From: Pseudomonas rubra
GTDB lineage: Bacteria > Pseudomonadota > Gammaproteobacteria > Pseudomonadales > Pseudomonadaceae
DNA length: 64,000 bases
NCBI RefSeq assembly: GCF_028656935.1
Contig: NZ_JAMDGZ010000015.1
Span: forward strand, 124,001 to 188,000
Reading direction: 5' to 3'
Position 1 is the stretch's first letter; each line of letters opens with the position of its first letter. The notes beneath the pieces were generated by a model, which was given only the letters and a program-made list of their open reading frames with translations, was not told the DNA's origin and searched no databases. Of this stretch, positions 28,079 to 57,213 are shown piece after piece. The translations under genes were made by a program, and so were the position numbers.

Positions 28079-28780
28079 TCAGATGTTCAGCACGTCGACA
28101 AAACGCGGGGTGGCCGTCTCGTCGATCTTCAGGTTGGTGAAATCGAACAGGTTGCGGTCAGCCAGTTGCGACGGCACCACGTTCTGCAGGCCGCGGAAGA
28201 TGCTCTCGGTACGCCCAGGGGTCTTGCGCTCCCACTCCACCAGCATGTCCTTGACCACCTGGCGCTGCAGGTTTTCCTGGGAGCCGCAGAGGTTGCACGG
28301 GATGATCGGGAATTCGCGCATGTCCGAGTAGGCCTGGATGTCCTTCTCGCTGCAGTAGGCCAGCGGACGGATCACCACGTTGCGCCCGTCATCGGCCCGC
28401 AGCTTGGGCGGCATGGCCTTGAGGGTGCCGTTGAAGAACATATTGAGGAAGAAGGTCTCGACGATGTCGTCGCGGTGGTGCCCCAGGGCCATCTTGGTCG
28501 CGCCGATTTCGTCGGCGAAGGTGTACAGGGTGCCGCGACGCAGGCGCGAGCACAGCGAGCAGGTGGTCTTGCCTTCGGGGATCAGTTCCTTGACCACCGA
28601 ATAGGTGTCCTTCTCGACGATGTGGTACTCGACGCCGAGGGTTTCCAGGTAGGCCGGCAGCACGTGCTCGGGGAAGCCTGGTTGCTTCTGGTCCATATTC
28701 ACCGCGACGATGTCGAACTTGATCGGCGCCACTTTCTGCAGGTGCAGCAGAACATCGAGCATGGTGTAGCTGTCTTTGCC
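28079..28780 (-). pseudogene. ttcA: Host ttcA, 3' fragment (split by island)
   Basis: This is the C-terminal 233 codons of tRNA-cytidine(32) 2-sulfurtransferase, from [14 protein letters not shown] to FVDVLNI. It retains the Fe-S cysteines in [14 protein letters not shown] and [13 protein letters not shown] but lacks the N-terminal 43 residues with the first half of the PP-loop. The missing part is at 57085-57213. Joining the pieces restores [11 protein letters not shown] without gain or loss of a base, so the gene is interrupted rather than degraded. An internal ATG at 28762 could give a 227-aa product without the ATP-binding loop, presumably inactive. Confidence 0.93.
28775..28780. other. 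Left attachment-site core (att)
   Basis: TTTGCC here, complement of the GGCAAA codons for Gly-Lys in the PP-loop, is repeated at 57085-57090. Host sequence GTGTAGCTGTC lies to the left and island sequence TTATAGCTTAAG to the right. The direct repeat is only 6 bp, so the exact crossover within it cannot be fixed. Confidence 0.75.
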
Positions 28781-28947
28781 TTATAGCTTAAGAAAACATA
28801 ACTGGACAGCACCAGCATAAGCACAACCTATTGATTTTAAATGAATTAAATAGAAAGCTGGCTTTACAGAAAAAGGTGGAAAAGTAAATTTTGCGTATTC
28901 CTGAGCTCTGAAAACCCTCATACCTCCCGAAAAATCACCTTGAACCT
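28781..28947. other. AT-rich terminal segment of the island
   Basis: These 167 nt between the left att core and the ttcA2 stop are AT-rich and without a gene. They contain TTATAGCTTAAGAAAAC at the very end and several A/T runs, and probably hold recombinase-binding sites and the ttcA2 3' untranslated region. No classical terminator was found. Confidence 0.6.
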
Positions 28948-29841
28948 TTACAAAATCCGAACGACATCAATTCGACCTTCAACACTGGATGATGAAACCT
29001 CGGCTGCTTCGAATTCGTAGGGCGGTCGGGCATCCGACCTATCAATGGATAGATCTATAAAATCGAAGAGGCTGCGATCAGCTAACTGGGAAGGACTTAC
29101 GCTTTGTAAGCTGTGAAAGATGTTTTCTACGCAGCCAGGATTTACCGAATCCCACTCCGCAATCATCGACTTGATTTTTTTCCTCTGCAAATTCTCTTGC
29201 GATCCGCAGAGATTACACGGAATGATTGGATATGCGCTATCGGCAGCGACCTTTGCTATATCTTTCTCGCGACAGTAGGCGAGTGGCCGGATGACTATAT
29301 TCCTCTTGTCATCGCTAAGAAGCTTAGGAGGCATCCCTTTCAATTGCGCTTGGAAAAACATGTTCAGAAACAAAGTTTCAACCATGTCATCCATATGATG
29401 ACCGAGTGCCAATTTAGTAGCCCCAATTTCCTCAGCAAAACTATAAAGCGTGCCCCTTCTGAGTCTAGAGCAAAGAGAACAAGTAGTCTTACCTTCTGGG
29501 ATCTTACTCTTGACAACGGAATAAGTATCCTTGTCAATTATATAATAATCAATCCCTTTAGCCTCGAAAAACTCAGGCAATATATGCTCCGGAAAGCCAG
29601 GTTGCTTCTGATCAAGATTAACCGCCACAACACTGAATTTTATTTGCGCAACTCTCTGCAAGTGCAGCAAAGCGTCAAGCATAACGAATGAATCTTTGCC
29701 ACCACTTACGCAGGCCATAACTTTGTCGCCATCTTCGATCATTGCATAATCTACAACAGCCTTGCCCACATTGCCGCGCAGCTTTTTACGACGAAGTTCC
29801 GCAGCTTTATTAATCTGAGATACCTGTTCGCCCATCATCAT
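28948..29841 (-). CDS. ttcA: Island-encoded complete tRNA 2-thiocytidine synthase TtcA
   Basis: This 297-aa protein thiolates C32 of certain tRNAs. It is complete: the PP-loop [16 protein letters not shown] is near residues 50-65, and the Fe-S cysteines are in [14 protein letters not shown] and [13 protein letters not shown]. By eye it shares roughly two thirds of residues with the host protein over the common region, but codons are much AT-richer and the C-terminus is different and longer (ending VVRIL). ATG at 29841 follows GGAAG; two further ATGs follow directly. It lies 167 nt from the attachment core, in the host gene's orientation, so it probably replaces the function lost by insertion. 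Confidence 0.92.
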
Positions 29842-30265
29842 AAACACTAGCTTCCAATTAAATATTTACAAGCCCAGCTTACTATAAAAACCTCGCCCAC
29901 CTTGCAACATCCCGCACCACTTGCGAAGGATTGAGATAGTTAGACACTACCAAAATCGGACGCATAAACAATTCGAAGCAAAGCACAACATTGAGGTCAC
30001 GTATTTAATATACGACATACACTCTTAAGTAAATCTATAAGTCAGTATCATCTGCCGAGTTTGACGCCAGCTATATCATAACAAGATTATGCCTGCGTTT
30101 TATAGAAGCTCCTGACCAACGATTGCATTTAGCTTGACCGAGTCGCAACAGAGGAGGATCACAGCACGGAACTCTGCGAGTCACGCGGAGAGGCCGCAGC
30201 AGCCTCAGAATCACATGTGGTGTCAGGCAGGCTCAGTCATTGAGGCTGGATTCAGACGTTGGAGA
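29842..30265. other. AT-rich intergenic region upstream of island ttcA
   Basis: No gene was found in these 424 nt. The half nearest ttcA is strongly AT-rich (for example TATTTAATATACGACATACAC near 30002-30022 and ATATCATAACAAGATTATGC near 30072) and must contain the ttcA2 promoter on the minus strand; no single -35/-10 pair stood out. GC rises after about 30130. Confidence 0.5.
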
Positions 30266-32592: not shown

Positions 32593-33739
32593 TTAAACGG
32601 ACGCCCACTGATGCGGCAGTAGCTGGTCGATCTCACTCGCCCGCTGCGTCGGCAGCCGCGTCAGCACATCTTTGAGATAGGCATACGGATCATGCCCATT
32701 CATCCGTGCCGACTGGATCAAACTCATGATCGCCGCCGTCCGTTTACCGCTGCGAAGCGACCCGGCAAACAACCAGTTCGACCGCCCAAGCGCCCATGGC
32801 CGGATCAAGTTCTCGATCTGGTTGTTGTCGATGGGCACAGCACCGTCTTCCAGGTAGCGCGTCAGCGCTACCCAACGTTTGAGGCTGTAATCCAGAGCCT
32901 TGGCCGTGGCCGAACCCTCAGGCACGAGTTCACGCTGGGCCAACATCCACTCATGCAGCTTTTAAGCGATGGGCACGGCTGTTTCCTGGCGTAATCGCCA
33001 ACGGTCTTCGTCGCTCATTTCCTTGGCGTGTCGCTCGACTTCGTACAGCCCGCCAATCGAGTGAAGCGCCTGCTCCGCCAATTGGCTTTGGCTACATGCA
33101 AGTCAAAGAACTTGCGGCGTGCATGGGCCATGCAGCCGATCTCGGTGATGCCCAGCTCAAAGCTGGCCTTGTAGCCGGCAAAGTCATCACAAACGAGCTT
33201 GCCGTTCCAGGTGCCCAAGAAGTTACGCGCATGTTCGCCAGCACGACTGGGGCTGAAGTCGTAGACAACGGCCTTTAAGGCCGAGAACGGCGCAGTGCTG
33301 TAGGCCCAGACATAAGCGCGGTGGGTTTTCTTCTCGCCGGGCGCCAGCATTTGTACCGGCGTTCATCGGCGTGGACGACGCGCTGGGCCAGCACTGCTTC
33401 TCGCAACGCATCGACCAGCGGCTGAAGCTGTACGCCGGTTTGCTGGCGTGGTTCTGCCTGTGCGAGAGCGGGATGAAGTGCTTTTAACTCCGCCTCGATG
33501 GCTTCGAGGTCGGTATTGAGCAGGTCATCAAGCAAGCTACCTTGAGCCGGGCTGATCTGCTCGCTGCGCTTGGCAAACTTGTGGCGTTTGAGAATGGCGA
33601 TTTCGTGAGTGAGTTGCTCGATGATCGTCTCATCACGATGAATTTTTCTGTCCTGGGTGTCGATCTTGGATATCAACTGCGCAGCCAGTGCGCGCAGTTG
33701 TTCGGGAGTCATTTGGTCGAGATCGGGCAAGGAAGTCAT
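32593..33739 (-). pseudogene. IS66 transposase TnpC, frameshifted
   Basis: The pieces in order are the N-terminal coiled-coil region (MTSLPDLDQMTPEQLRALAA, with LKRHKFAKRSEQIS), a middle domain (THRAYVWAYSTAPFSALKAV, CDDFAGYKASFELGI, GCMAHARRKFFDLH), and the C-terminal domain (YLEDGAVPIDNNQIENLIRP, SLIQSARMNGHDPYAYL). Frameshifts lie near 33360 (after VVHADE) and 33085 (after FFDLHVAK), and an in-frame TAA is at 32962-32964 in the segment normally reading PIADKLHEWM. A recent decay, as most codons are still recognisable. Confidence 0.9.
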
Positions 33740-42754: not shown

Positions 42755-42867
42755 ATGAGCACCCAACGACTCTCGCCGGAATTCAAGGCAGAAGCCGTCA
42801 GGCAAGTCATTGAGCGCGGATACTCCGTTGCGGAAACAGCCGAGCGCCTCGGCGTTTCGACCCACAG
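42755..42867 (+). pseudogene. IS3-type transposase OrfA, 5' fragment
   Basis: After a strong AGGAGGAAG, the frame reads MSTQRLSPEFKAEAVRQVIE, then AETAERLGVSTHSL, the N-terminal HTH of IS3-family OrfA. It breaks off at about 42866, where the sequence changes to a rulB fragment. No OrfB or right end is present. Confidence 0.8.
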
Positions 42868-43331
42868 CCTCCTACACCGCTCGGGCTTGTGAAAAGCTGC
42901 GCGCGCAGCGCTCCCTGTGCAAGAAGGTACGGATCAGCATTCGCACTGGCATGTTCAACCCGGACGAGCCGAAGTTCACCAAGGGCATTATCTGTGAGTT
43001 GCCCTATCCGACCGACGATACCCGACTGATAACCAAGGCCGCCTCCGCAGGGCTGGAACTGATCTTCCGGGCCGGCTTTGCATTCAGTAAGGCGGAGATC
43101 CTGTTGCTCGATCTGCGCCAGCGTGGCGAGTTCACCGATGACCTGTTCGTCGCGACACCGCAGATGGCTGCCGAGCGGGTGATGGGGGTGATGGATGCGA
43201 TCAATGCACGATGGGGGCGTGGAACGATGCGACCTGCAGGGGTGCCGGCGAAACCGGACTGGGGCATGCGGCGGGAGATGATGAGCCCGAGCTATACGAC
43301 GCGGATTGATCAGTTATGGACGGTAACGTAA
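42868..43331 (+). pseudogene. rulB: rulB/umuC, 3' fragment
   Basis: The fragment encodes about 150 C-terminal residues of a UmuC/RulB-type DNA polymerase V subunit: ACEKLRAQRSLCKKVRISIR, TGMFNPDEPKFTKGIICELP, YPTDDTRLITKAA, GLELIFRAGFAFSKAEILL, and a Lys/Arg-rich end with SPSYTTRIDQLWTVT. The N-terminal catalytic two thirds and the partner rulA are missing. It is fused to the 5' part of an IS3 transposase gene, so it is a deletion scar. The rulAB operon is usual on Pseudomonas plasmids and a known hot spot for island insertion. Confidence 0.88.
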
Positions 43332-44868: not shown

Positions 44869-45519
44869 ATGCAGGCTTGCCAGGTATTCAGCGATCAGGA
44901 TGAAATCGCCGCCCGTCTTGAACAGTTGAGTCTGGAGCGCGAGCCACTGCGTGAGGCTATCAATCAAGCTCACCTACAGCGGGTTCGCCTGACTCCTAAC
45001 CATCCCAGCATTTTTCCCGGCCTTGAAATGTGGGGCTGGTTGGTAGGAGCGGTGCGCGATCAGCTGCGCCCACTAGGGTGGGTCGCGCATGAACAGTCGA
45101 ACTACCCGCTTACCGTTCACTCGGCGCTCAATCTCGCGATTGCGGTCGCATCGGGGGATAGCTATGTTGGAAATCTGCTGGGGATGCCGAGCAGCCGATC
45201 CAGGAAGGGTAAAAATACAGTTGATGCTGTTGAGCGGAATTGCCAGTTCGACATGTTTGCTGACTTGCTGCCCGATCCGGAGGAGCTGCCTGAATCAGGC
45301 CCTCATGAGACCTGGATCCTGCTCCACCACACCGACACGGTGAAGAAGGAAATCCGCATCGAGCTCTCACGTCCATCGGGAATGGGTAAAGGCGGCAAGA
45401 TCAATTTCTGGTCTGAACGCATCATGCTTGGCACCCTTGCTCTTGATGATGATTTCTTTGAGGTTACCTCCCCAGGCGGTCCGGATATCGACATCGAAAT
45501 TCGCCGTAAAAGCTCGTGA
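44869..45519 (+). CDS. Unknown protein paired with XRE-ImmA/IrrE, 216 aa
   Basis: ATG at 44869 follows TTAGGAG. The protein is soluble, with a charged helical N-terminus (EIAARLEQLSLEREPLREAI) and a C-terminal half rich in beta-type segments (ETWILLHHTDTVKKEIRIEL, GGPDIDIEIRRKSS). No catalytic motif was recognised. The XRE-ImmA/IrrE gene begins 6 nt after its stop, so the two form an operon and presumably a functional pair. Partner genes of XRE-ImmA proteins are often toxins or defence effectors, but nothing in this sequence proves that. Confidence 0.7.
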   Translation: MQACQVFSDQDEIAARLEQLSLEREPLREAINQAHLQRVRLTPNHPSIFPGLEMWGWLVGAVRDQLRPLGWVAHEQSNYPLTVHSALNLAIAVASGDSYVGNLLGMPSSRSRKGKNTVDAVERNCQFDMFADLLPDPEELPESGPHETWILLHHTDTVKKEIRIELSRPSGMGKGGKINFWSERIMLGTLALDDDFFEVTSPGGPDIDIEIRRKSS

Positions 45520-45525
45520 TAGATC

Positions 45526-46680
45526 ATGTTTAATCCACAACGATTTGCGCTCGCCCGTCGCCGGCGAGGTATGAAAAAGCGTGAGCTTGCCACTCATATA
45601 GGAGTAACGGAGCGATCGGTCTCCGGCTACGAGAGTGGCACGCAGGAGCCAGAGCCTGGAACCCTGACAAAAATCGCTAAAACGCTTCGGTTCCCCGAAG
45701 CGTTTTTCTTTGGTGATGATCCTGAGGTGCCAACGCCGGATGTTGCCAGTTTCCGGTCGCTCTCAAAGATGACTGCTGGCCTTAGGGATTCAGCTCTCGG
45801 TGCAGGCGCAATTGCGCTCCTGCTGAATGACTGGATCGAGCAACGTTTCGATTTGCCAGAGCCGGATCTTCCGGACCTGGGGTCCGAACGCGCTGCACTG
45901 ACGAATTTTGAGGCGCTCGATAAGCTGGAACTATCAAGCAGTGCCCAAGCGCCAGAGGCCGCTGCGGAGATGCTGAGGGCACACTGGGGTTTAGGTGAGC
46001 AGCCGGTTAAGAACATGATTGCGCTTCTTGAGTCGAAAGGCGTTCGTGTCTACTCACTTGCAATTGATGCAAGGGAGGTCGACGCGTTCTCGATGTGGAG
46101 TGGCGGCCGCCCCTTTATGTTCTTGAATACCTTCAAGTCGGCCGAGCGTTGCCGCTTTGACGCAGCTCATGAATTAGGACATTTGGTTATGCACCAGCAT
46201 GCCCACCCACAAGGACCTGATTTAGAGCGTGAGGCGAATGCCTTTGCGTCGGCTTTTCTAATGCCACGTGCAAGCGTTCTAGCGATGGCTCCACGTTCGA
46301 TCACTATCAAAAGCCTCATCAAATACAAGAAGCTCTGGTCCGTTTCTGTGGCAGCCTTAAATTACCGACTTCATAGCCTGGGGCTTTCCACGGAGTGGGC
46401 TTACCGAACGCTGTGTATTCAGATTGCTCAAGAGGGCTATCGCACCGAAGAGCCGGAATCTATTGCTCATGAGCGGTCAGTGATCCTGGAGAAGATTTTC
46501 GCCGCGTTACGTGCAGATGGGGTTGGGAAAGCTGGCATCGCGGGAGAACTGGCAATCAGTCCTGAGGAGATCAATGAATTGACGTTCGGATTGATGTTGA
46601 ACGTGTTGAAGGGGCAGAGCGCTAACCCCTCCGACTCTGGCGGGAAATCAGGTGCCCATCTTCGTTTGGTCAAGGGGTGA
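45526..46680 (+). CDS. XRE-type HTH protein with ImmA/IrrE metallopeptidase domain
   Basis: The 384-aa protein has an N-terminal XRE HTH (RFALARRRRGMKKRELATHI, VTERSVSGYESGTQEP; residues 6-43) and a C-terminal ImmA/IrrE zinc peptidase domain with CRFDAAHELGHLVMHQHAHP (HExxH as HELGH near residue 215) and the third ligand in LEREANAFASAFLMP. Such proteins are both repressor and protease: in phage and ICE systems they cleave partner or repressor proteins upon stress. The upstream unknown gene is 6 nt away and is the likely partner. Converges with the DUF6088 gene. Confidence 0.88.
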   Translation: MFNPQRFALARRRRGMKKRELATHIGVTERSVSGYESGTQEPEPGTLTKIAKTLRFPEAFFFGDDPEVPTPDVASFRSLSKMTAGLRDSALGAGAIALLLNDWIEQRFDLPEPDLPDLGSERAALTNFEALDKLELSSSAQAPEAAAEMLRAHWGLGEQPVKNMIALLESKGVRVYSLAIDAREVDAFSMWSGGRPFMFLNTFKSAERCRFDAAHELGHLVMHQHAHPQGPDLEREANAFASAFLMPRASVLAMAPRSITIKSLIKYKKLWSVSVAALNYRLHSLGLSTEWAYRTLCIQIAQEGYRTEEPESIAHERSVILEKIFAALRADGVGKAGIAGELAISPEEINELTFGLMLNVLKGQSANPSDSGGKSGAHLRLVKG

Positions 46681-46743: not shown

Positions 46744-47379
46744 TTAAGGAGCAGGCGTGTTGACGGTGTGTATGCGCGCTGACAGCTCCAACGCCATGCG
46801 CATCCATTTCGGCATTTTGCAGGCCATTAATGTGGTTAGCTCTTCAGGCCTGAGCACCTTCTTGATCGCGGCAATGCATTCCGGGGTCGAGCTGTCTTTA
46901 CCGAGATAAAATAGCGCGCTGATAGCCGTCCCTACCTCGGTCCCGGCACGCTGCATGACCATTGGTTCCGCATGTACCAACCGGACCTCAGCCTTCCCCA
47001 TAAAAAATGATCGGCTGGGTCCGCTGGTGTAATAGATCGGAATGAGCGGCATCTGGGTGCTCAGTCCAAACAACCTGACCGCATGAGCGCCATGAATCTG
47101 TAGAACATGGCGGTGCTGCCTAGCGATCAAGCTCACTACTTCCCATACATTTGGGCGAACCCGTGCAACGTATCGACTGGATTTCGGGCGCATGTAAATT
47201 CCTCGATGCACCCGTTCAAGTTCGCCTTGGCTGACCAGCCGAGCTACTGCCTTGGATATGGCACCACGCGCTCCAAGCTCCGCAAAGCGGCTGATGCAGA
47301 AGGGTTTCCCTTTGGGTAAGCGCTTGACCCGTTGCGCAATGCGGGTGGATACCGACAGAGCAAAATCAGTGCTGGACAT
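46744..47379 (-). CDS. DUF6088 / AbiEi-antitoxin-like protein
   Basis: The 211-aa protein starts MSSTDFALSVSTRIAQRVKR (47379; an in-frame ATG at 47391 is also possible). A winged-helix N-terminal region (GKPFCISRFAELGARGAISK, LVSQGELERVHRGIYMRPKS) is of the type found in AbiEi-like transcriptional antitoxins (DUF6088). No AbiEii nucleotidyltransferase toxin partner lies next to it; instead it follows the BPSL0761-type gene by 14 nt. It may be a regulator of this small block. Confidence 0.75.
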   Translation of the reverse strand: MSSTDFALSVSTRIAQRVKRLPKGKPFCISRFAELGARGAISKAVARLVSQGELERVHRGIYMRPKSSRYVARVRPNVWEVVSLIARQHRHVLQIHGAHAVRLFGLSTQMPLIPIYYTSGPSRSFFMGKAEVRLVHAEPMVMQRAGTEVGTAISALFYLGKDSSTPECIAAIKKVLRPEELTTLMACKMPKWMRMALELSARIHTVNTPAP

Positions 47380-47393
47380 TGCGGCTCTCATTT

Positions 47394-47723: not shown

Positions 47724-49124
47724 TCAAAAGCAAGCCAGCAACTGTTGCCGGTAGTGCTTGGAAAAGCTGACCAGATGGCTTGGCTCAGCGGCAGAGCCCC
47801 CCAGGGATAAGGTGCATGTAGCACCTGCCCCAATTACCTGCGCAATGCCACTTCCAATACTGTCATCCACGACATCGATATTGCCAGCAGCCCCAATCCA
47901 GCCAGATATTGAACCTGAAGTGGAGGCTGGCATCTCTACCTCGTTCAGCACTGCCAGGTCATCCGGTAGATCATCTGCAATTCTCTCTGCCAAGCACTGC
48001 AGTGTCGGCTCCGCTAACATGAATAGCCACGCCTGATTATCGGGCTCGCCTGTGCGCCGAAGCACTCGCCCCAGCACTTGTCGGTAATGCAGCTCAGTGC
48101 GGATGCGACTGAGGTAGCAGCACACCTGGAGTCGGGGAATGTCCGTGCCTTCGCTGATCATTCCAACTGCGATAATCCAACGGCAGGCGCTGTGTCTGAA
48201 CGCATTGATAACCTGCTGCGCAGCCGGGGTTTTGTTGGTCACGATGCGGCAACCTTCACCCAAGGTTTCCAGGGCGAAGGCAATTTGCTGGGCGTGCTCG
48301 ATGTCGGTGGCAACCACCAAGCCTGCCGCATCAGGCTTGACCAGGCGAAGCTCATCCAGCTTGCTGCACCCGAGACCGAGTAACTGATCAATCACCTCAT
48401 CATGACGCAATAGCTCTTCGTAGGTGACAGGGGACTCCCCCAATAGTTTGGCAATGCTGGGAAACATCCTGACAGTGCTCTCTGCGTCCAGTTCCTCGGT
48501 AAGTTTCACCTTCTGGTTGTCGAGCAGGACAATGCGAGGGGAGCGGCACACACCATCAGCAATGGCCTCTTTCAATCCGTAGCGGTAGTCGCAGATCAGG
48601 TACCCCTCGGGCGTCGAGTAGCGGGCCAGGGCAATAGCCCGGTCGTCCGAACGCCATGGGGTGCCGGAGAGGGCCAGGGTGAAGGTGGCCCTGTCCTGTA
48701 TCCGCTGAAGAATCTGTTGGCCCCAGGCGTTACTCAGAAGTACATCGTGGCCGGCGCAGTGGTGGATTTCGTCGAAAACCACGAACACACGGTAGTCATC
48801 GAGGAGTCGCCAGAACGCCTCATCTCGGTATTCCATGGCTTGATAGGTGAACGCCGCCCCCACTGCGCCTAGTTGGCCGTCCAAGCGTCTGCCGAGCACC
48901 GCAGCAAAGGACGAGCGAAAGCCCTCGACAACCTGGCAGGATGGCGCGAAGCAGAGCACCAGATCGATTCTGTCCTGCTCAAGCAGCCTGCTTGCCAGCT
49001 CTGCCGCCATGCGCGTCTTGCCGGCGCCCGGCGTTGCCTGGCAGAAGAAGTGTGGCGTGGCAGTAAAGTGCTCCAGTGCTGTGTCAATGCAGCGGCGTTG
49101 CCAGTTTCGCAGCAGTGTGGTCAT
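47724..49124 (-). CDS. SF2 DEAD/DEAH-box helicase, 466 aa
   Basis: Motifs are clear: Walker A FCQATPGAGKTRMAAELASR (residues 28-47), the DEIH box in FVVFDEIHHCAGHDVL near residue 118, motif III in LALSGTPWRSDDRAIAL near residue 155, and the C-terminal helicase domain with AVGMISEGTDIPRLQVCCY and motif VI YRQVLGRVLRRTGE near residue 350. It is of the Type III restriction/UvsW-like SF2 group, without an attached nuclease domain. It overlaps the winged-helix gene upstream (49121-49124), so the two proteins probably work together in defence or DNA processing; mechanism unknown. Confidence 0.9.
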   Translation of the reverse strand: MTTLLRNWQRRCIDTALEHFTATPHFFCQATPGAGKTRMAAELASRLLEQDRIDLVLCFAPSCQVVEGFRSSFAAVLGRRLDGQLGAVGAAFTYQAMEYRDEAFWRLLDDYRVFVVFDEIHHCAGHDVLLSNAWGQQILQRIQDRATFTLALSGTPWRSDDRAIALARYSTPEGYLICDYRYGLKEAIADGVCRSPRIVLLDNQKVKLTEELDAESTVRMFPSIAKLLGESPVTYEELLRHDEVIDQLLGLGCSKLDELRLVKPDAAGLVVATDIEHAQQIAFALETLGEGCRIVTNKTPAAQQVINAFRHSACRWIIAVGMISEGTDIPRLQVCCYLSRIRTELHYRQVLGRVLRRTGEPDNQAWLFMLAEPTLQCLAERIADDLPDDLAVLNEVEMPASTSGSISGWIGAAGNIDVVDDSIGSGIAQVIGAGATCTLSLGGSAAEPSHLVSFSKHYRQQLLACF

Positions 49125-49708
49125 CGTGCGGAGGCAAGCGTCTTGAGCGTCTTCTCGATGGCGCGGAGATGGCCCAGCAGGCGCGAGCTTCGGTCTCTAG
49201 CTTCCAGGTATTCGACTTCGACCTTATCCCGGAGGTGCGGCATATCTTCGAGGAGCAGCTTGTATCGCTCCGCCTCGCCCATCGATGCCAGGAAGTCCAG
49301 CCTGATTTCCTTGAGGAGCGCCTCCAGGTGCTGATCCGCATCGACTGATGGTTGCGGCACCGCCGCATTATCGAACGCTGACGGCTCCTGCTCTGGCTCA
49401 CAAGCAGTCTTATGGCTGTTCTCGAACCCGTTGTCGATCAGCTCCAATTGCAGATGTGCCGGAATCGGCTGCAAGTGGTAGACCTGTCCCCGCGAACGGC
49501 GCTCTTCATCGAGCACAACCCAACCCATGCGCAGCATTCGGCGGATCTGCTCATACACATAGCGGCGCACATCACCGATACGGAAAGTCATGCCATCCAG
49601 GCGCTTGGCATAGGCATCACGCAGTTCACGCGTCGTGAACCTTGCACGCCCTTCCTCCTGAAGCAGCTCATACAGACGCCTGTCGAAGATAAACGAGGCC
49701 GATTTCAT
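49121..49708 (-). CDS. Winged-helix DNA-binding partner of helicase, 195 aa
   Basis: The protein starts MKSASFIFDRRLYELLQEEG (49708; an upstream in-frame extension is not preferred). A winged-helix type region spans residues 15-75 (ARFTTRELRDAYAKRLDGMT, VRRYVYEQIRRMLRMGWVVL, YHLQPIPAHLQLE). The C-terminal third is a charged coiled coil (ERYKLLLEDMPHLRDKVEVE, LLGHLRAIEKTLKTLA). Overlap with the helicase gene is ATGA. The promoter region shared with the divergent XRE gene carries a palindrome over the -10 box, so this pair is likely XRE-controlled. Confidence 0.78.
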   Translation of the reverse strand: MKSASFIFDRRLYELLQEEGRARFTTRELRDAYAKRLDGMTFRIGDVRRYVYEQIRRMLRMGWVVLDEERRSRGQVYHLQPIPAHLQLELIDNGFENSHKTACEPEQEPSAFDNAAVPQPSVDADQHLEALLKEIRLDFLASMGEAERYKLLLEDMPHLRDKVEVEYLEARDRSSRLLGHLRAIEKTLKTLASAR

Positions 49709-49738
49709 TGAGGCACCAGAAGAGTAATCGCAAAAGAT

Positions 49739-49769
49739 GCGGATTATAGTCCGTGGCCTGTACATCCGC
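49739..49769 (-). promoter_or_regulatory. Promoter and operator-like palindrome of the helicase operon
   Basis: On the minus strand TTGCGG, 17 nt, TATAAT (the -10 at 49743-49748) is a good sigma-70 promoter reading into the winged-helix gene. Nested inverted repeats overlap it: CGGA/TCCG (around CGGACTATAATCCG) and GCGGAT/ATCCGC (49739-49744 and 49764-49769). They are a likely binding site for the XRE protein encoded divergently. Confidence 0.6.
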
Positions 49770-49810
49770 AAACGCACGATAGTGCCGCCTCAAGTGGAAT
49801 TGAGACGGTC

Positions 49811-51330: not shown

Positions 51331-51741
51331 TTAGCCATTTTGTATCTCTTCAGGTCTTTTCTTGACCAAGGCATAGAGATCCAGGTTGGGAATGGCATTG
51401 GCGTTCAAAAGCATCCTCTCAATCATACGCAGTTGCTCTGCATTATTTCTTTTGAGAACCGCAACCTCAGCCTTCAAGTGCTCTATTTGCTCCACAAGCT
51501 TTACTTCAGAAGCAGTTATCTTTGTGAGCAGGGAAGGAGTTGCGCCACGAAGTTGAGCTTTTTTATTCTTATAATATGTGTTAATACCGACATAAGTGCA
51601 TAGAGTTTGCCTAGTTGTTTTTATGCCAAGCTCAAGCTCTACCTTAGCGACCAGCGCGTCCCAAGTCAGCTTACCTACCCACTTAGCTAACATAATCTCT
51701 ATTTTACGCTGTTGCTGAGCTGATATTTTTGGTACTACCAC
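51331..51741 (-). CDS. ginD: GinD-like small coiled-coil recombination protein
   Basis: I chose GTG 51741 (136 aa) because GGGGAGG lies 6 nt upstream and it follows directly from the ginC stop; the longer frame upstream is within ginC. The protein has an N-terminal HTH-like region (SAQQQRKIEIMLAKWVGKLT, GIKTTRQTLCTYVGINTYYK) and a central coiled coil (LVEQIEHLKAEVAVLKRNNA). This is like TnpC of Tn554 in size and composition, and fits the small fourth protein of GInt operons reported as needed for integration and excision. Last gene of the operon. Confidence 0.78.
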   Translation of the reverse strand: MVVPKISAQQQRKIEIMLAKWVGKLTWDALVAKVELELGIKTTRQTLCTYVGINTYYKNKKAQLRGATPSLLTKITASEVKLVEQIEHLKAEVAVLKRNNAEQLRMIERMLLNANAIPNLDLYALVKKRPEEIQNG

Positions 51742-51742
51742 A

Positions 51743-54040
51743 TCACACCTCCCCTTCAGACAGGCCGAAAGAGGATAAAAGAGAGCGCAACTCGGGATTA
51801 GTATCAGACGCTGTTCTCGCGGTCTTATCTTCAATGACACCTTTCAGGCGAGCCTCAAAATCCGGCAGGGCACACGCGACCTTTGTAATGATCATAGTAT
51901 TTAAATCAGTCAAACTGAACTCTGCATTATTATTTGAATAACGAATTACCGTTCCGACAGGCCTACTTCTCATCAAATCATTCAGCATGGATAGAATATG
52001 GGTATTTCGCGAGTGAATTAAATACCACTGCTTCATTGCTTGGGAATTTGGCAAACGTGGATCACATGCAACAGATTCTAACCTCACAGTTTGAAACGAT
52101 AAGTCTTTCTCAAGAAATTCGATAGTCTTCACATCGCCAGCAATGTGACAAGTCTCCGGACACATAAAGCACTGAGAGACGAAATCGTTCAAATAATTGC
52201 AAGGGGTCACATTCAGATTTTGAGTGCAAAGACCGGTGGAGGTAACAGATGCCGGCAGGTTGGTGGTTTGTGCAAGTTGATCTTGGGAAACGACTCGAAT
52301 ATCCCGCTTGTCGATATCTGGCGGATTCAATATCGCACTCACACGACTGGCTTTCTCGTCGTGACTCGTATGAATATAAGTATGGGTTTGATCGGGATTC
52401 TTTCTGCCCGACCAAGCAGTAATGATTTCCACTGAAATTTTACTTAGATCAGCAAAAGTGTTCGATAAGTGGCGTAGACTGTGCGGTCGTAGCCTTAGCT
52501 CTGAAGAAAATCCGTAATTCTTAAAGATTGATAGCTTGTAGCGAGGATTGCTAGTTAGCCTAACAGCAACCGAACTGCCTAGAGATGCTAATGGCACCAC
52601 CGCATAATTTGTTTTTTGAAATAATTTCCCACCACTTCCGACACTCTCGGACGCACCATAAAGCCAACTCCCCAAGAGGCAAAACATGGCATCCTTCAGT
52701 TTGATACTTGATTCTCCGCTTGAAAATGAGAGTGGAAATTCCGGCAAAATTGATTTTCTATAGAAAGCAATCCACCACTCCTGCACTTCTTCAACCGAAA
52801 CGACAGACTTATCGGAAAAAACTTTTGGCATATTGGCGTACCCGAACAAGTGGGGTAATCCTGCTAAAGCTGCACTTCTTGTTTGCGACACGGACAACTG
52901 ATCTTGAGGCAGCAACGAGTAAATCGGTTTTTTTTCGAAAAAACGACCTCTTTGACTTTTATGGATGGAAGTCAGATCAGCTCCTTCCTTAAGGACCGGA
53001 ACGCAATCATTAACCCCATAAAACCCTAATGCATAACCCAATGTGAAAAGATTAGGCCGTTTGGTTAAATCTAAATTTCTCTCTAGCTCTGGTTCCATCT
53101 CGAACCCACAGAGCAACGCCTTCAAGCTTTTGCCCGGATTCTCGTAGAATCGACAGAGAATTCTTGCTGGCTCGCATGCCTTGTAGAAAAAGTTTAGGGC
53201 TTTCTTTATCGGCTCAGCGAGCACCGCAAGTACGTGATTTTTGTGGTTCCCGTAGCCTTTGCTTCCAATCCAGTCGAGATAATAAACTGGCTCTCCATTA
53301 CTTTCAGAGTAACAATGCAGTCTTTGTTTAGGCAGAACTGGTATTTCCGCAGAAATTCGATTAGGCGATGCCAGCGAGAGTAGTGCAGAAGTCACCACTA
53401 AGGCATCATGGATTTTTATCTCTTTACCAGGGCTCAGCGAGCCATGTTCATCCACATATTCAAACACACTAGAGTAGATGTCGGCTAGCGCAAGCACTGT
53501 TTGGGTATCTGGGAGTTTCTCCAGCGTATTGTCAAACGCGGCATGTCCCGTCCTGTCTCTGTTGTCGCTGCCCTTCAGGTTGACCTTTCGCATTACCCCC
53601 TTTTCAGCGCAGAACGCGAGAAACGGCCGCAAGCGGTCAGCTGAACGCGCCCCCAAATTAAGGCTGGTGATTGTGCACTCTGATTGCTCATAGAGATCAC
53701 CATCCATGAGTGACAACAATTTCCTAACTACCGACGTCCGAGCTTTTTTTTCGTTGACGGAAAGTGGTGTGTTCGTTGTTTCTATGATCCACACTTTTAT
53801 CAGGTGGTCATAGGGGTAAGGAAGGGCGTATATGGGATGGTTGCCGGCGTTGCCTTTGCCCTTACGCCCATGTACACCACACAAGAATCTGGTTCGGCGG
53901 CCAGTATTGGGGTTCACATGATACCAGACCAAATCATCAAACTCCGCTTTCTTGCCGCCATGCCCTTCAAATTGCGCTAGCTCGGCTTCGCGATATTCGC
54001 TGATGAGCCGTTCCAATCGGCCAAGGTATTTGTTAAGCAT
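51743..54040 (-). CDS. ginC: Tyrosine recombinase, third of trio (GinC-like)
   Basis: The 765-aa protein has a C-terminal catalytic region with RPHSLRHLSNTFADLSKISV (HxxR near residues 518-522) and the nucleophile Tyr in THTYIHTSHDEKASR near residue 555. The long N-terminus has no recognised domain. A Cys/His-rich segment (SQCFMCPETCHIAGD, near residue 625) follows the catalytic part, suggesting a zinc finger. ATG 54040 overlaps the ginB stop; an earlier ATG at 54070 would add 10 residues. Position and length fit the third recombinase of GInt operons. Confidence 0.82.
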   Translation of the reverse strand: MLNKYLGRLERLISEYREAELAQFEGHGGKKAEFDDLVWYHVNPNTGRRTRFLCGVHGRKGKGNAGNHPIYALPYPYDHLIKVWIIETTNTPLSVNEKKARTSVVRKLLSLMDGDLYEQSECTITSLNLGARSADRLRPFLAFCAEKGVMRKVNLKGSDNRDRTGHAAFDNTLEKLPDTQTVLALADIYSSVFEYVDEHGSLSPGKEIKIHDALVVTSALLSLASPNRISAEIPVLPKQRLHCYSESNGEPVYYLDWIGSKGYGNHKNHVLAVLAEPIKKALNFFYKACEPARILCRFYENPGKSLKALLCGFEMEPELERNLDLTKRPNLFTLGYALGFYGVNDCVPVLKEGADLTSIHKSQRGRFFEKKPIYSLLPQDQLSVSQTRSAALAGLPHLFGYANMPKVFSDKSVVSVEEVQEWWIAFYRKSILPEFPLSFSSGESSIKLKDAMFCLLGSWLYGASESVGSGGKLFQKTNYAVVPLASLGSSVAVRLTSNPRYKLSIFKNYGFSSELRLRPHSLRHLSNTFADLSKISVEIITAWSGRKNPDQTHTYIHTSHDEKASRVSAILNPPDIDKRDIRVVSQDQLAQTTNLPASVTSTGLCTQNLNVTPCNYLNDFVSQCFMCPETCHIAGDVKTIEFLEKDLSFQTVRLESVACDPRLPNSQAMKQWYLIHSRNTHILSMLNDLMRSRPVGTVIRYSNNNAEFSLTDLNTMIITKVACALPDFEARLKGVIEDKTARTASDTNPELRSLLSSFGLSEGEV

Positions 54041-55685
54041 CGATTGTGCGCTGCCTTGCGAGCTCTTCATCGCAAACCATTATTGTCAGCCTCACCCAAA
54101 GAATCTGCCTCTCCAATTTTTCAATACTGCGGGCATAAAGAGGATTGACTAGGGAGTTGCGGTTTGCAGCAAGCTTGCCCTCTGCATCTCCCAATACCGA
54201 CCTGTGATCAGCTTCTAGTACCGGACGAAAGTTTGGGCACCCATAACACCCCAACGGCCTCCCAAGAGCTGTTGAGCAGGTAGCGCAGGAATGCTTGTTG
54301 CGTGCCCCACCAACAGGGTTGAACTTATTGTCGACAATGACCTCATCGCCTTCCGGAACTACAGTTAAGGTATGGCTAAAAGCCTTTTTCAGAAACTCAT
54401 TGCCGATATACTTTGAGTCAATCTCTCTCCTAGATACATAGTCCAAATCTATGTAATGCCTTGCAGCTGGCACGGTGACACCTGTCATCTTGGCCAATTG
54501 AACGGCGGGCAAACCATTTTGAGCGCCGCGAGTTAATACGGTGTGACGAATTCTGTTGGAAGTAGCCATACATTCGAGAGTTCGATCAGAGGTAACCGGA
54601 ACCCATCTCATGGCCTGTGCAACTGCAGTCTCCGATATGTGGTAGGCAGTAGACTTAGGCGTAAACATACCTTTGAAAAAATCCAAAGAATCAAATCGCA
54701 CTTCAAAAAAGCTAACTTCTGGAAACATGGGCATATCATTCATGAGACTCAAGAGCTCAGATTGATTCACTTGAATCTTTGCCGAGTCCATCACCAATGT
54801 AAGCCCTTCCAAGACAATTCGCTTATAGTCTATAAGAATCTTTGAGATATATTCGGAAAGATGTATTGGATAACGCTCGGGACGCTCCCTTGAAAATTGT
54901 GCCCCCTTAGACTTAGCGATGAACACTCGAAGCTGTAATGTTTGCGCCCCTACCGTGCCGATTTCGTCCACAGGAAGAATTCCTGCGTCTCGAAAACTTG
55001 CACCTGAAGGGATCAGATCAGACCATTTCAATAGCGCGATCTGAATTGGCCGCCTCACAATGGAGAGCAACAACTTGTTAGTGACCAAATTTCTGAGCCG
55101 CGCATAGAGCCTCGGCGACTGGAAAAACAAAAGATCACGACGTGCCCCCCAATCGAACTCTTGTATGTTTGTATTGATCTGCTTGGCTAACGAATCAAAC
55201 TCAATATCACTTAATGCCCCAATGGAAGGGTCAAGGGTGTTGTCTTTACCCTTATCCAAATGTGACCGTGTATACTTGTGATATTCTTCATACCGTGTAT
55301 CACCTTGCCTAGAGAGCGCTCCAAAGAACTGATTTAGTCCCTTCTTATTATTTGTCTGCAGCCCACTCCATATGGCTTTCACTCTGGCTAACGCGGGAAT
55401 GCCATCCATCATAAATGGCTTTACATTGCAAACAATACCTGACGCCGTACTCGCAGCCTTGGTTCGCACGTAGTCCACAAATACACTCAGAATTAACTTT
55501 TTATCATCATCTGGCATGTTAGACGAATGAACCCAGTCAACGCACAACCGTTTTCCTTTTCCATTATTCGGTAGTAATATCCATACATCGTCCGAGGTAT
55601 TTACCATCAGGCCAGATTTGGCCGTAATCCATGAGCCTTCATTAGTCAGAGACTTAAAAACTTCCCGCCTCTTCTCGCGAGTCAT
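54033..55685 (-). CDS. ginB: Tyrosine recombinase, second of trio (GinB-like)
   Basis: The 550-aa protein shows a divergent tyrosine-recombinase core: first Arg in VRRPIQIALLKWSDL near residue 215, box II NRIRHTVLTRGAQNGLPAVQ near residue 376 (HxxR replaced by RxRH), and the putative nucleophile Tyr in ARHYIDLDYVSRREI near residue 410. A four-Cys cluster (CATCSTALGRPLGCYGC, near residues 467-483) follows. ATG 55685 overlaps the ginA stop. The altered box II may mean it acts only with GinA and GinC. Confidence 0.85.
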   Translation of the reverse strand: MTREKRREVFKSLTNEGSWITAKSGLMVNTSDDVWILLPNNGKGKRLCVDWVHSSNMPDDDKKLILSVFVDYVRTKAASTASGIVCNVKPFMMDGIPALARVKAIWSGLQTNNKKGLNQFFGALSRQGDTRYEEYHKYTRSHLDKGKDNTLDPSIGALSDIEFDSLAKQINTNIQEFDWGARRDLLFFQSPRLYARLRNLVTNKLLLSIVRRPIQIALLKWSDLIPSGASFRDAGILPVDEIGTVGAQTLQLRVFIAKSKGAQFSRERPERYPIHLSEYISKILIDYKRIVLEGLTLVMDSAKIQVNQSELLSLMNDMPMFPEVSFFEVRFDSLDFFKGMFTPKSTAYHISETAVAQAMRWVPVTSDRTLECMATSNRIRHTVLTRGAQNGLPAVQLAKMTGVTVPAARHYIDLDYVSRREIDSKYIGNEFLKKAFSHTLTVVPEGDEVIVDNKFNPVGGARNKHSCATCSTALGRPLGCYGCPNFRPVLEADHRSVLGDAEGKLAANRNSLVNPLYARSIEKLERQILWVRLTIMVCDEELARQRTIDA

Positions 55686-56929
55686 TTTTGCTGATCCACT
55701 CTTTTTTGATGCACCATTGATATCTCTCTCGCCTTCAGCGCAATTCGCTTTTCATTATATCGCCTGTTCTGAGTGGTATTTTGCGACCAGCCCATGGCAT
55801 ATTTTCTAGCATCCTCAAGCAAAGCCGGATTGACCCCAAGCGACTCCCCTTTCTTATCAAAAATTTCATTCCATTTGTGGCGCAACACATGAGGATGGAC
55901 ATGAAAGCCCAGCGATCTAGAGAGCTTTTGAAATATTGCATTTATTGCCTTTAAAGAAAGAGGCTGACCTGCAGTGCCTTTAGAGTCATTTTCGCTGACA
56001 AACACGAAGTCATGGAATTGCGCACGAGGAAAGACAGTACGAACGTTGTCAATATAAAACTTAACCTTCTCCAAAAAACCTGGATCAACCGAGGCGAAGT
56101 GTGCTTTTGTCTTTTGATTGGGTTTTTCAGAGCGCGGATCTGTTGGATCATTTGCAGATCGATAAATAGCTAGCTGATCGTTAGTGCCATGAAATAGACA
56201 GTCAGAAATCTTCAATTTTGCCAGCGCACCTCTTCTGATGCCGCTTAGGACTAGCAAATTGGCGATCAAGTAATTCCTCACCCTAGATGCTTTAAAGGGA
56301 TTATTAGGAGATGACGGCATCACCATCTCTAAAAACTTTACGAAAACGTCATCCGGGATCACCGATTCCTCAGGATCGCCGACATGTTGCCCTCCATTCT
56401 TGCCAAGGGCATCTTCATCTAACCTAATTTTTGAAATAAGCCTATTAAATTTATTTTTTGTTTTTTCGTCAGCATCTTGCACTTCGTGAAACTCATCGAA
56501 CAGCCATAAAAGAAATTGTCGAAGTCGTCTGATGCGACCTTGCAAGGTTTCGCTAGCGACCTTTGTCATCCTTTTCTGATTGGCAACAATGATGTTCCTT
56601 AGATGTTTATCATTTATATCTAGAAATTTTATATTTATACCTTCATCACCAGAACCCTTACTTAAGCAGCATCTGTCATAGAACTGCATGTACTCCATCT
56701 GGGATATAAAGATGCCCGATGCAACTCGTTCGGGTAGGTCAATATTTTTTTCCGAAAAGTACTGCAGCACGAACAGCAGTTCATTTGCGTACCTAAATCT
56801 CGTATTGGCCGATTTAGCAGATAAAGCGCCATTGAGATAGCAGGAAACATACGGATCAATAGGGCAATCCGCTTCGTCCACTATCGACACGAAGGGCAAC
56901 GAATTGAATTGGTATCGTTTGACTTTCAT
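55682..56929 (-). CDS. ginA: Tyrosine recombinase, first of trio (GinA-like)
   Basis: The 415-aa protein has the catalytic residues in standard order: Arg in LSGIRRGALAKLKISD near residue 231, HPHVLRHKWNEIF (box II HxxR) near residue 348 and Tyr in NTTQNRRYNEKRIALKA near residue 391. An N-terminal core-binding-like domain precedes. ATG 56929 (MKVKRYQF) is preferred; a TTG at 56938 in frame is possible and neither has a clear Shine-Dalgarno. It is the first gene of the overlapping ginA-ginB-ginC-ginD operon and the closest to the attachment site. Confidence 0.86.
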   Translation of the reverse strand: MKVKRYQFNSLPFVSIVDEADCPIDPYVSCYLNGALSAKSANTRFRYANELLFVLQYFSEKNIDLPERVASGIFISQMEYMQFYDRCCLSKGSGDEGINIKFLDINDKHLRNIIVANQKRMTKVASETLQGRIRRLRQFLLWLFDEFHEVQDADEKTKNKFNRLISKIRLDEDALGKNGGQHVGDPEESVIPDDVFVKFLEMVMPSSPNNPFKASRVRNYLIANLLVLSGIRRGALAKLKISDCLFHGTNDQLAIYRSANDPTDPRSEKPNQKTKAHFASVDPGFLEKVKFYIDNVRTVFPRAQFHDFVFVSENDSKGTAGQPLSLKAINAIFQKLSRSLGFHVHPHVLRHKWNEIFDKKGESLGVNPALLEDARKYAMGWSQNTTQNRRYNEKRIALKAREISMVHQKRVDQQK

Positions 56930-56968
56930 AATTGACAAAAAAGCTAGTCCAATAACCGATTTAGTTAC

Positions 56969-56996: not shown

Positions 56997-57078
56997 ACGA
57001 GAGGAAAGGAAAATCGACGGAAGGCGGGGCTTACAGGCAATGCCTACAGGTTTATAGGCTTTACAAATATTTTTTTGG

Positions 57079-57213
57079 TTATAATTTGCCGCCGGACAGG
57101 CAGACCATGACCTTGTCACCGTCTTCGATCATGTTGAAGTCGGTGATGGCTTCGCCGGCGAGACGACGCAGGCGTTTTTGCAGTTTGTTCTGGTTGACCG
57201 AAAGGGTGCCCAT
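57079..57213 (-). pseudogene. ttcA: Host ttcA, 5' fragment (split by island)
   Basis: The first 43 codons of host ttcA are [20 protein letters not shown] through [15 protein letters not shown]. After GGCAAA the frame reads into the island as a single Leu codon and TAA (57079-57081). It keeps the native ttcA start and promoter region (57214-57480, divergent to the Yip1 gene). The complementing 3' part is at 28079-28780. A 44-aa product would have no function; readthrough from this promoter reaches ginA about 150 nt further. Confidence 0.92.
57085..57090. other. Right attachment-site core (att)
   Basis: TTTGCC here is the same hexamer as at 28775-28780, the complement of GGCAAA in the ttcA PP-loop. 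Island sequence TTGGTTATAA is on the left and host sequence GCCGGACAGG on the right. Removing 28781-57084 joins the two sides to an uninterrupted ttcA. Confidence 0.75.

Follow-up and report, generated by a model that had tools for sequence, protein, structure and literature searches.

In the 64,000-nucleotide stretch of Pseudomonas rubra DNA analysed here (the window), we found that a 28,304-bp insert at positions 28781–57084 divides the host ttcA gene within its PP-loop codons, between SGGK and DS. The insert is very probably an SE-type element that targets the PP-loop DNA of sulfurtransferase genes, chiefly ttcA, and carries as a fixed part a ttcA of its own, which replaces the split gene in the thiolation of tRNA C32. 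In this reading, the recombinases of the element would recognise the DNA that codes for the PP-loop motif SGGKDS of sulfurtransferases, that of ttcA above all. Because such DNA is conserved for the sake of the active site, many hosts would offer a usable sequence, and integration would split the enzyme at just this place. A complete ttcA at the attR end, expressed from the element, would take over the thiolation of C32.

The junctions of the element were mapped to the base, the TtcA frame is open across the joined flanks, and junctions of the same type were found in 18 relatives. The 5' part of the host ttcA lies at 57085–57213 on the minus strand, where the frame reads SGGK and then ends with Leu and a stop codon within motif C, the terminal motif of the element on this side. 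The 3' part was located at 28079–28780, also on the minus strand, from the list of open reading frames and by a genome search. A 6-bp core, GGCAAA, forms the terminal bases of the 5' part (attL, 57085–57090, minus strand) and recurs, as Gly-Lys codons, in the opening bases of the 3' part (attR, 28775–28780, minus strand). When the two halves were joined in a script, they gave an open TtcA of 274 aa with 98.9% identity to another Pseudomonas TtcA; the halves are thus undecayed, and judged by this frame the insertion into the host ttcA looks recent. Between 56938 and 57213, transcription of the host ttcA would now proceed codirectionally toward the intA operon. Since H2O2 is reported to raise ttcA expression in P. 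aeruginosa (PMC6082896), the activity of the element might track oxidative stress, coupled to it through transcription of the host ttcA.

The last gene before attR is a second ttcA, the candidate replacement gene, at 28948–29847 on the minus strand. Its open reading frame encodes 299 aa when counted from a GTG, with ATG codons from 29841. The sequence-only reading had described this gene as full length with the PP-loop and cysteines preserved, as diverged and AT-rich, and as lying 167 nt from the crossover in the orientation of the broken gene, and all of this was borne out. The protein scored 438 bits against the NCBIfam TtcA equivalog (cut-off 272) and retains SGGKDS, CSLCS and PCNLC. It is 69% identical to the host TtcA over the 3' half and 66% identical over the joined protein, and the gene has a GC content of 44.4%, compared with 60.6% for the two halves of the host ttcA. 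The stop codon and the element edge at 28781 were both located, the former 167 nt inside the latter, and the orientation is that of the broken host gene. A search of the genome itself at E 0.001 returned three ttcA matches, namely the island copy and the two host halves; the island ttcA is the only intact copy found in its own genome. Counts of promoters and terminators by the island ttcA fell inside the shuffle range, not above chance.

Loss of ttcA is reported to sensitise P. aeruginosa to H2O2 (PMC6082896), so an element without a copy would cost its host. The proposal of a target-replacement strategy, made from the sequence alone, stood in so far as an intact, constrained homologue is present in every one of the 16 readable elements, but its corollary, that excision makes loss of the island neutral, was not supported. 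Published SEs (PMC9345347, PMC10214605) are described as circularizing by a copy-out-like route in which an empty site is not detectable; the host ttcA is therefore not expected to be restored routinely, and the host would then depend on the island copy. Judged by the joined frame, exact deletion would restore the host ttcA, and a loss of any other kind would leave no intact ttcA behind.

This dependence can be read in another way, namely that the island ttcA serves addiction or captivity rather than compensation: it makes the host dependent, and selection acts against island deletions. We regard this as quite possible, if somewhat short of probable. It is favoured by the island holding the only intact ttcA found and by the lack of a detectable empty site in the published SEs, but exact deletion would still restore the host gene, as the open joined frame indicates. 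Captivity and replacement share the same anatomy and differ in the object of selection. Under the preferred reading, replacement of the function of the split gene, the island enzyme would be expressed and active, rescue would be the reason for its retention, and the element would move by copy-out as the published SEs do.

The recombination genes lie next to each other at the attL end, all on the minus strand. The gene intA (55682–56938, 418 aa) encodes a tyrosine recombinase with a match to Pfam Phage_integrase and the motif HVLRH. The product of tfp (54033–55685, 550 aa) is recombinase-fold-like, has another residue in place of the first catalytic His (NRIRH) and gave a weak, sub-cut-off match to the NCBIfam model 'site-specific integrase'. 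The large tyrosine recombinase encoded by intB (51743–54070, 775 aa) has HSLRH and TYIHT, and Pfam and NCBIfam searches gave no match for it. The small fourth core gene, srap (51331–51840, 169 aa), was recognised by its place and its conservation in 9/9 complete elements, Pfam and NCBIfam searches having given no family match. Several traits are those of SEs: intA-tfp-intB and srap are adjacent at the attL end, in equal order in all nine complete elements; by motif reading, the catalytic motif is present in IntA and IntB and altered in Tfp; and both junctions bear a 6-bp core of the form GGNAAR in 16/16 elements, with attL and attR differing in 7 of them. The element also has imperfect terminal inverted repeats, for which 13–19 bp are expected. 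Motif C at the intA-side terminus (TTATAACCAAAAAAATATT, 57066–57084, minus strand) and motif C' at the ttcA-side terminus (TTATAGCTTAAGAAAACAT, 28781–28799, plus strand) form an imperfect inverted repeat with 12 of 19 bases identical by plain count, and the termini of the other eight complete elements start with [ATG]TATRR at both sides.

The element most probably belongs to the SE type, which published descriptions set apart from GInts; our own comparison covered a pair of homologues from Photobacterium and a single element beside ssb. The gene set of both SEs and GInts consists of three genes for recombinase-fold proteins plus a small one, and the element might instead be a GInt or some other three-recombinase element, which we consider unlikely. 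According to the published description, the motif-less product is the second (Tfp) in SEs and GinC in GInts (PMC10214605). However, an element of plasmid pTROUS1 beside ssb, a typical place of a GInt, shows the arrangement of the window: the first His is changed in the second product, and the third retains HxxRH and Tyr. This arrangement therefore does not separate the two classes. The line between SE and GInt thus rests on the 6-bp core, which together with the footprint is an SE feature, and on the closer similarity to Photobacterium: the second and third products of the window matched their Photobacterium homologues with 28–31% identity (E 4e-44 to 5e-98) and matched those of the ssb element with E about 1e-12. 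An ICE or a phage-type island was set aside because of the intA-tfp-intB-srap row at the end and because the annotated frames, which are part of the cargo frames, included no relaxase or conjugation gene.

Relatives of the element were collected by searches with IntA, in which 31 of 398 genus genomes matched at E 1e-20, 13 of 398 family genomes matched at E 1e-45, named genome contigs gave 10 loci, and plasmids gave 5 records at E 1e-30; among 369 class genomes, only the window's own genome matched at E 1e-45. With duplicates merged and IntA identity of at least 53%, these made up 19 elements, that of the window and those of 18 genomes or records. The intA-side junction lies within the SGGK codons in all 19 (in G406 it was read from a contig starting inside the site). 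The ttcA-side end was readable in 16, and each of these has the island ttcA there. Comparison of the related elements, along the lines that the sequence-only reading had proposed, placed ttcA at the same end in every readable case, and relatives inserted in ttcA without a ttcA copy were sought and none was found, with 3 of the 19 elements not judgeable. In these three (G403, G600 and G614), searches found no island ttcA and no 3' half of the host gene; their contigs stop about 13–25 kb past intA and are therefore uninformative on the presence of ttcA. Among the close relatives is an element on the 506-kb P. aeruginosa plasmid pPA942-IMP45 (L074, L254), in which intA is in two pieces.

Sixteen targets could be read on both sides: 14 are host ttcA genes, and the other two belong to a Halothiobacillus MAG and to plasmid pPA942-IMP45. 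The Halothiobacillus target is divergent and TtcA-like, with a 3' half that scored 168 bits against NCBIfam TtcA, below the cut-off of 272, and the plasmid target is a DndC-like PP-loop gene whose 3' half scored 99 bits, below the cut-off of 290. Despite this non-ttcA target, the plasmid element keeps an island ttcA with 99% identity, and the Halothiobacillus element also carries ttcA. Judged from these genes, the feature common to all targets is the PP-loop coding sequence. The attR cores code for Gly-Lys in 16/16, although 6 of them were located by a pattern that itself demands GGNAAR, all at the start of the 3' part of the interrupted gene. The differences between the attL and attR cores involve GGGAAA, GGAAAA, GGGAAG and GGTAAA, and GGCAAA versus GGCAAG in three elements; an attR core unlike attL, as in the seven elements above, is expected if the element carried the core of an earlier PP-loop gene.

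The PP-loop of the island ttcA contains the attB core too (GGCAAA, 29695–29700, minus strand), but its serine codons are AGT and TCA as against TCC and AGC in the host gene. We compared these codons in 17 island-type genes (those of 16 elements and a gene of G745) and in 47 host genes. Of 163 class genomes with TtcA, the 30 best matches yielded loci, 29 of them new, and 9 of 57 loci fetched in all could not be parsed and were dropped (L116, L182, L186, L189, L194, L195, L199, L205 and L207). In the targets used, the first serine codon is TCN in 18/18 parsed left arms and the second is AGY in 14/15 right arms. The island copies have AGY followed by TCN in 15 of 16 elements, a pattern absent from 46/47 host genes; the exception is G404, with TCN/TCN both in the target and in its own ttcA. 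Of the seven serine columns that are conserved, the two beside the crossover have exchanged TCN for AGY or the reverse, and the other five are AGY in 0–2 of the 16 island copies. A switch at exactly the two crossover-side serines has 1 chance in 21 by count alone, which is weak statistically because the island copies are one clade and maybe reflect one event.

Tentatively, the island ttcA might be a recoded rescue gene, in which the same active-site residues are encoded by other codons and the element's own recombinases cannot insert. Recoded rescue is used in engineered homing drives, and the island ttcA would be a natural counterpart. A sister gene in G1080 and the gene of G745 carry AGY/TCN too, in genomes without an IntA match, so the pattern may stem from the donor lineage, and inheritance from a donor is at least as likely as the avoidance of self-insertion.

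To place the island genes by descent, we used a tree of 64 TtcAs, in which the 17 island-type genes form one clade (100/99) outside the 18-gene Pseudomonas host clade. The island-type gene of G745 (L179) falls within the clade and the gene of G1080 (L089) is its sister; neither genome has an IntA match at E 1e-10, and the two genes may be either domesticated copies or members of the donor lineage. The dN/dS ratio is 0.04–0.08 in 8 of 11 island pairs (dS is saturated in the other three) and 0.08–0.18 in four host pairs. The low ratios among the island copies indicate that these genes are maintained as enzymes. By the tree and these ratios, the island TtcAs share common descent and are under purifying selection.

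An enzyme under such constraint might be kept for another reason, such as a specificity for certain tRNAs or stresses or the protection of tRNA against nucleases, with the match to the target being secondary. A distinct clade with 66–69% identity to the host's TtcA, one member of which comes from a genome that lacks an IntA match (G745), would fit such a role. However, the gene sits at the same end in 16/16 readable elements, the motifs examined are all retained, and a separate role leaves unexplained why the carried gene is a homologue of the usual target, making this explanation quite unlikely in our view.

Nine elements are complete on single contigs; they range from 25.6 to 106 kb and differ in cargo. 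With frames of at least 70 aa from the window, G561 and G404 as queries (E 1e-8, half of the frame covered), the sense genes common to all nine were intA, tfp, intB, srap and ttcA, and the remaining common frames are antisense inside these five. Apparently, ttcA is the fifth core gene and a fixed part of the element. The idea that ttcA is ordinary cargo caught by chance near the element end, which the variability of the rest of the cargo would allow, has a negligible probability: the gene recurs at the same end in 16/16 elements, excluding chance, and its stop codon lies 163–174 nt from attR in 15 of them (240 nt in G404), even though complete elements span 25.6–106 kb.

Compared with the window, the best segments of the island TtcA are 75–99% identical and those of the three recombinase genes 46–82%; over all paired residues, the island TtcA is 68–100% identical. 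In the G404–G561 pair, srap is more conserved than ttcA. In 9 of 13 pairs, all five genes show similar levels of synonymous difference, which would be expected if they were inherited together. In the remaining four, which involve G518, G572 and G619, the ttcA end and the recombinase genes differ in divergence: in G518 and G619, ttcA is near-identical to that of the window (pS 0.01–0.03) and the recombinases are further off (pS 0.36–0.73), with a weaker difference in G572. This mismatch suggests that ttcA ends are sometimes exchanged and are not strictly bound to one recombinase lineage. The 106-kb element of G619 (L168–L173), which combines a window-like intA-side end, some common cargo and a near-identical ttcA with clearly different recombinases, appears to be a mosaic.

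The variable cargo of the window lies between ttcA and srap (29848–51330) and includes a transporter, a hybrid kinase, RmrT/RmrA and AbiEi-like genes, and a helicase-like gene with its neighbour. The pair at 44869–46680 matched PADLOC RmrT and RmrA (E 1e-63 and 8e-164, respectively), and an AbiEi-like gene at 46744–47391 adjoins it. The helicase-like gene and its 218-aa neighbour, at 47724–49777 by srap, recur in five and six, respectively, of the remaining eight complete elements and are a common, not universal, part of the element. A piece of a UmuC-type polymerase (IMS_C, DUF4113) at 42810–43331 is perhaps a relic of another insertion. Short frames lie at 32593–33739, at least one of which (33275–33739) is an IS66-type transposase remnant.

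A whole diverged replacement gene had been called rarer than a new gene end in the sequence-only reading, which is fair, but the principle is already published, in the accounts of the recA mobile element RME (PMC4405046), of SE-6283 with bcp (PMC5991714, PMC9345347) and of Tn552-II with tgl (PMC12486829). Like the element in the window, SE-6283 (Tn6283) and its bcp relatives in Vibrio are SEs with four recombination genes that break a housekeeping gene and carry a diverged homologue. The chromosomal SE-6283 relatives in bcp shown in these sources all carry bcp, compensation was proposed, and insertion of SE-6283 was observed in E. coli (PMC5991714, PMC9345347). SE-6283 differs in that the target and the carried gene are bcp, which encodes a thiol peroxidase; in addition, the locus tag of its homologue follows that of srap, whereas ttcA in the window lies at the opposite end, by attR. 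RME of Vibrio cholerae S24 resembles our element as a 32.8-kb island in a conserved gene with a complete diverged copy at one end, shown to be functional, and an integrase at the other, but it targets recA, has 9-bp inverted repeats, occurs in both orientations and restored an intact recA on excision, as described in the source, which also cites a C. difficile thymidylate synthase case (PMC4405046). Tn552-II of Staphylococcus aureus likewise carries a target-like gene, with rescue suggested and a core from an earlier site, but has Tn554-type tnpABC, a 7-bp core and a YolD-like target and belongs to Firmicutes (PMC12486829).

GInts share with the window an operon of three recombinase-type genes and a small gene, together with variable cargo, and 6 of the 11 examined sit in ssb; in contrast, their target is usually not completely inactivated, and no replacement gene is described in that source (PMC5385486). 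The Rac prophage of E. coli also uses ttcA as its attachment gene, but there four TtcA residues near the N-terminus are changed, and the account has no description of a second ttcA (PMC4632033). There is no mention of ttcA in the GInt text (PMC5385486) or in the main texts of the SE papers, and the open-licence literature searched yielded no report of an SE that is inserted in ttcA and brings a ttcA copy. The features not found described before are the ttcA target, the count that makes the carried gene a fixed fifth one, the PP-loop as the common part of different target genes, and the choice of serine codons beside the crossover. The few published mobile elements that carry a substitute are now extended to a tRNA-modification gene, and in the nine complete elements this substitute recurs with the same constancy as the four genes for recombination. 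The element family appears to target a motif of an enzyme active site, and its insertions include further genes bearing the motif, one of them on the 506-kb P. aeruginosa plasmid. It suggests a route by which a foreign gene could take the place of a core tRNA-modification gene while the function is preserved.

These observations raise a testable rule, that elements cutting inside genes carry a substitute and those inserting at gene ends do not. In 16 other elements with a related IntA, no clear downstream copy of the neighbouring gene was found. In 11 cases this neighbour is an ssb or nth-like frame, with the element located behind the frame or at its 3' end. For eight Pseudomonas elements with a more distant IntA, up to 2.2 kb of upstream sequence was compared by tblastx with a stretch of 40–60 kb. 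Six of the eight lie after an ssb frame (one frame was confirmed by Pfam, the rest by common sequence), and no ssb copy was found in any of the six within the 40–60 kb searched. The downstream matches in G170 and G337 lie only beside or inside the start of intA (in G337, 59% over 74 aa, E 7e-27), and G216 and G005 gave ambiguous results, with scattered short tblastx matches (E 3e-5 to 9e-5). The stretch at the intA start of G337 (L219–L221) matches again about 14 kb downstream, which is perhaps a second element start.

In Vibrionaceae, 10 of 197 genomes matched and eight elements were searched with tblastn, three of the searches covering about 12.8 kb and two only 4–5 kb; within these stretches, no downstream match to the neighbouring gene was found in 8/8 (within L240–L253). 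In five of the eight, the insertion site is the 3' end of an nth-like frame, as checked by Pfam for one of these frames. G1200 appears to interrupt a frame and has no copy in the 12.8 kb searched, a possible exception to the general rule. The gene-end elements without a copy and the ttcA elements with one form a contrast, not a proof. In Photobacterium (L040), an element whose IntA is 34% identical splits a gene and has its far end beyond the contig; the split gene presumably resembles comM.
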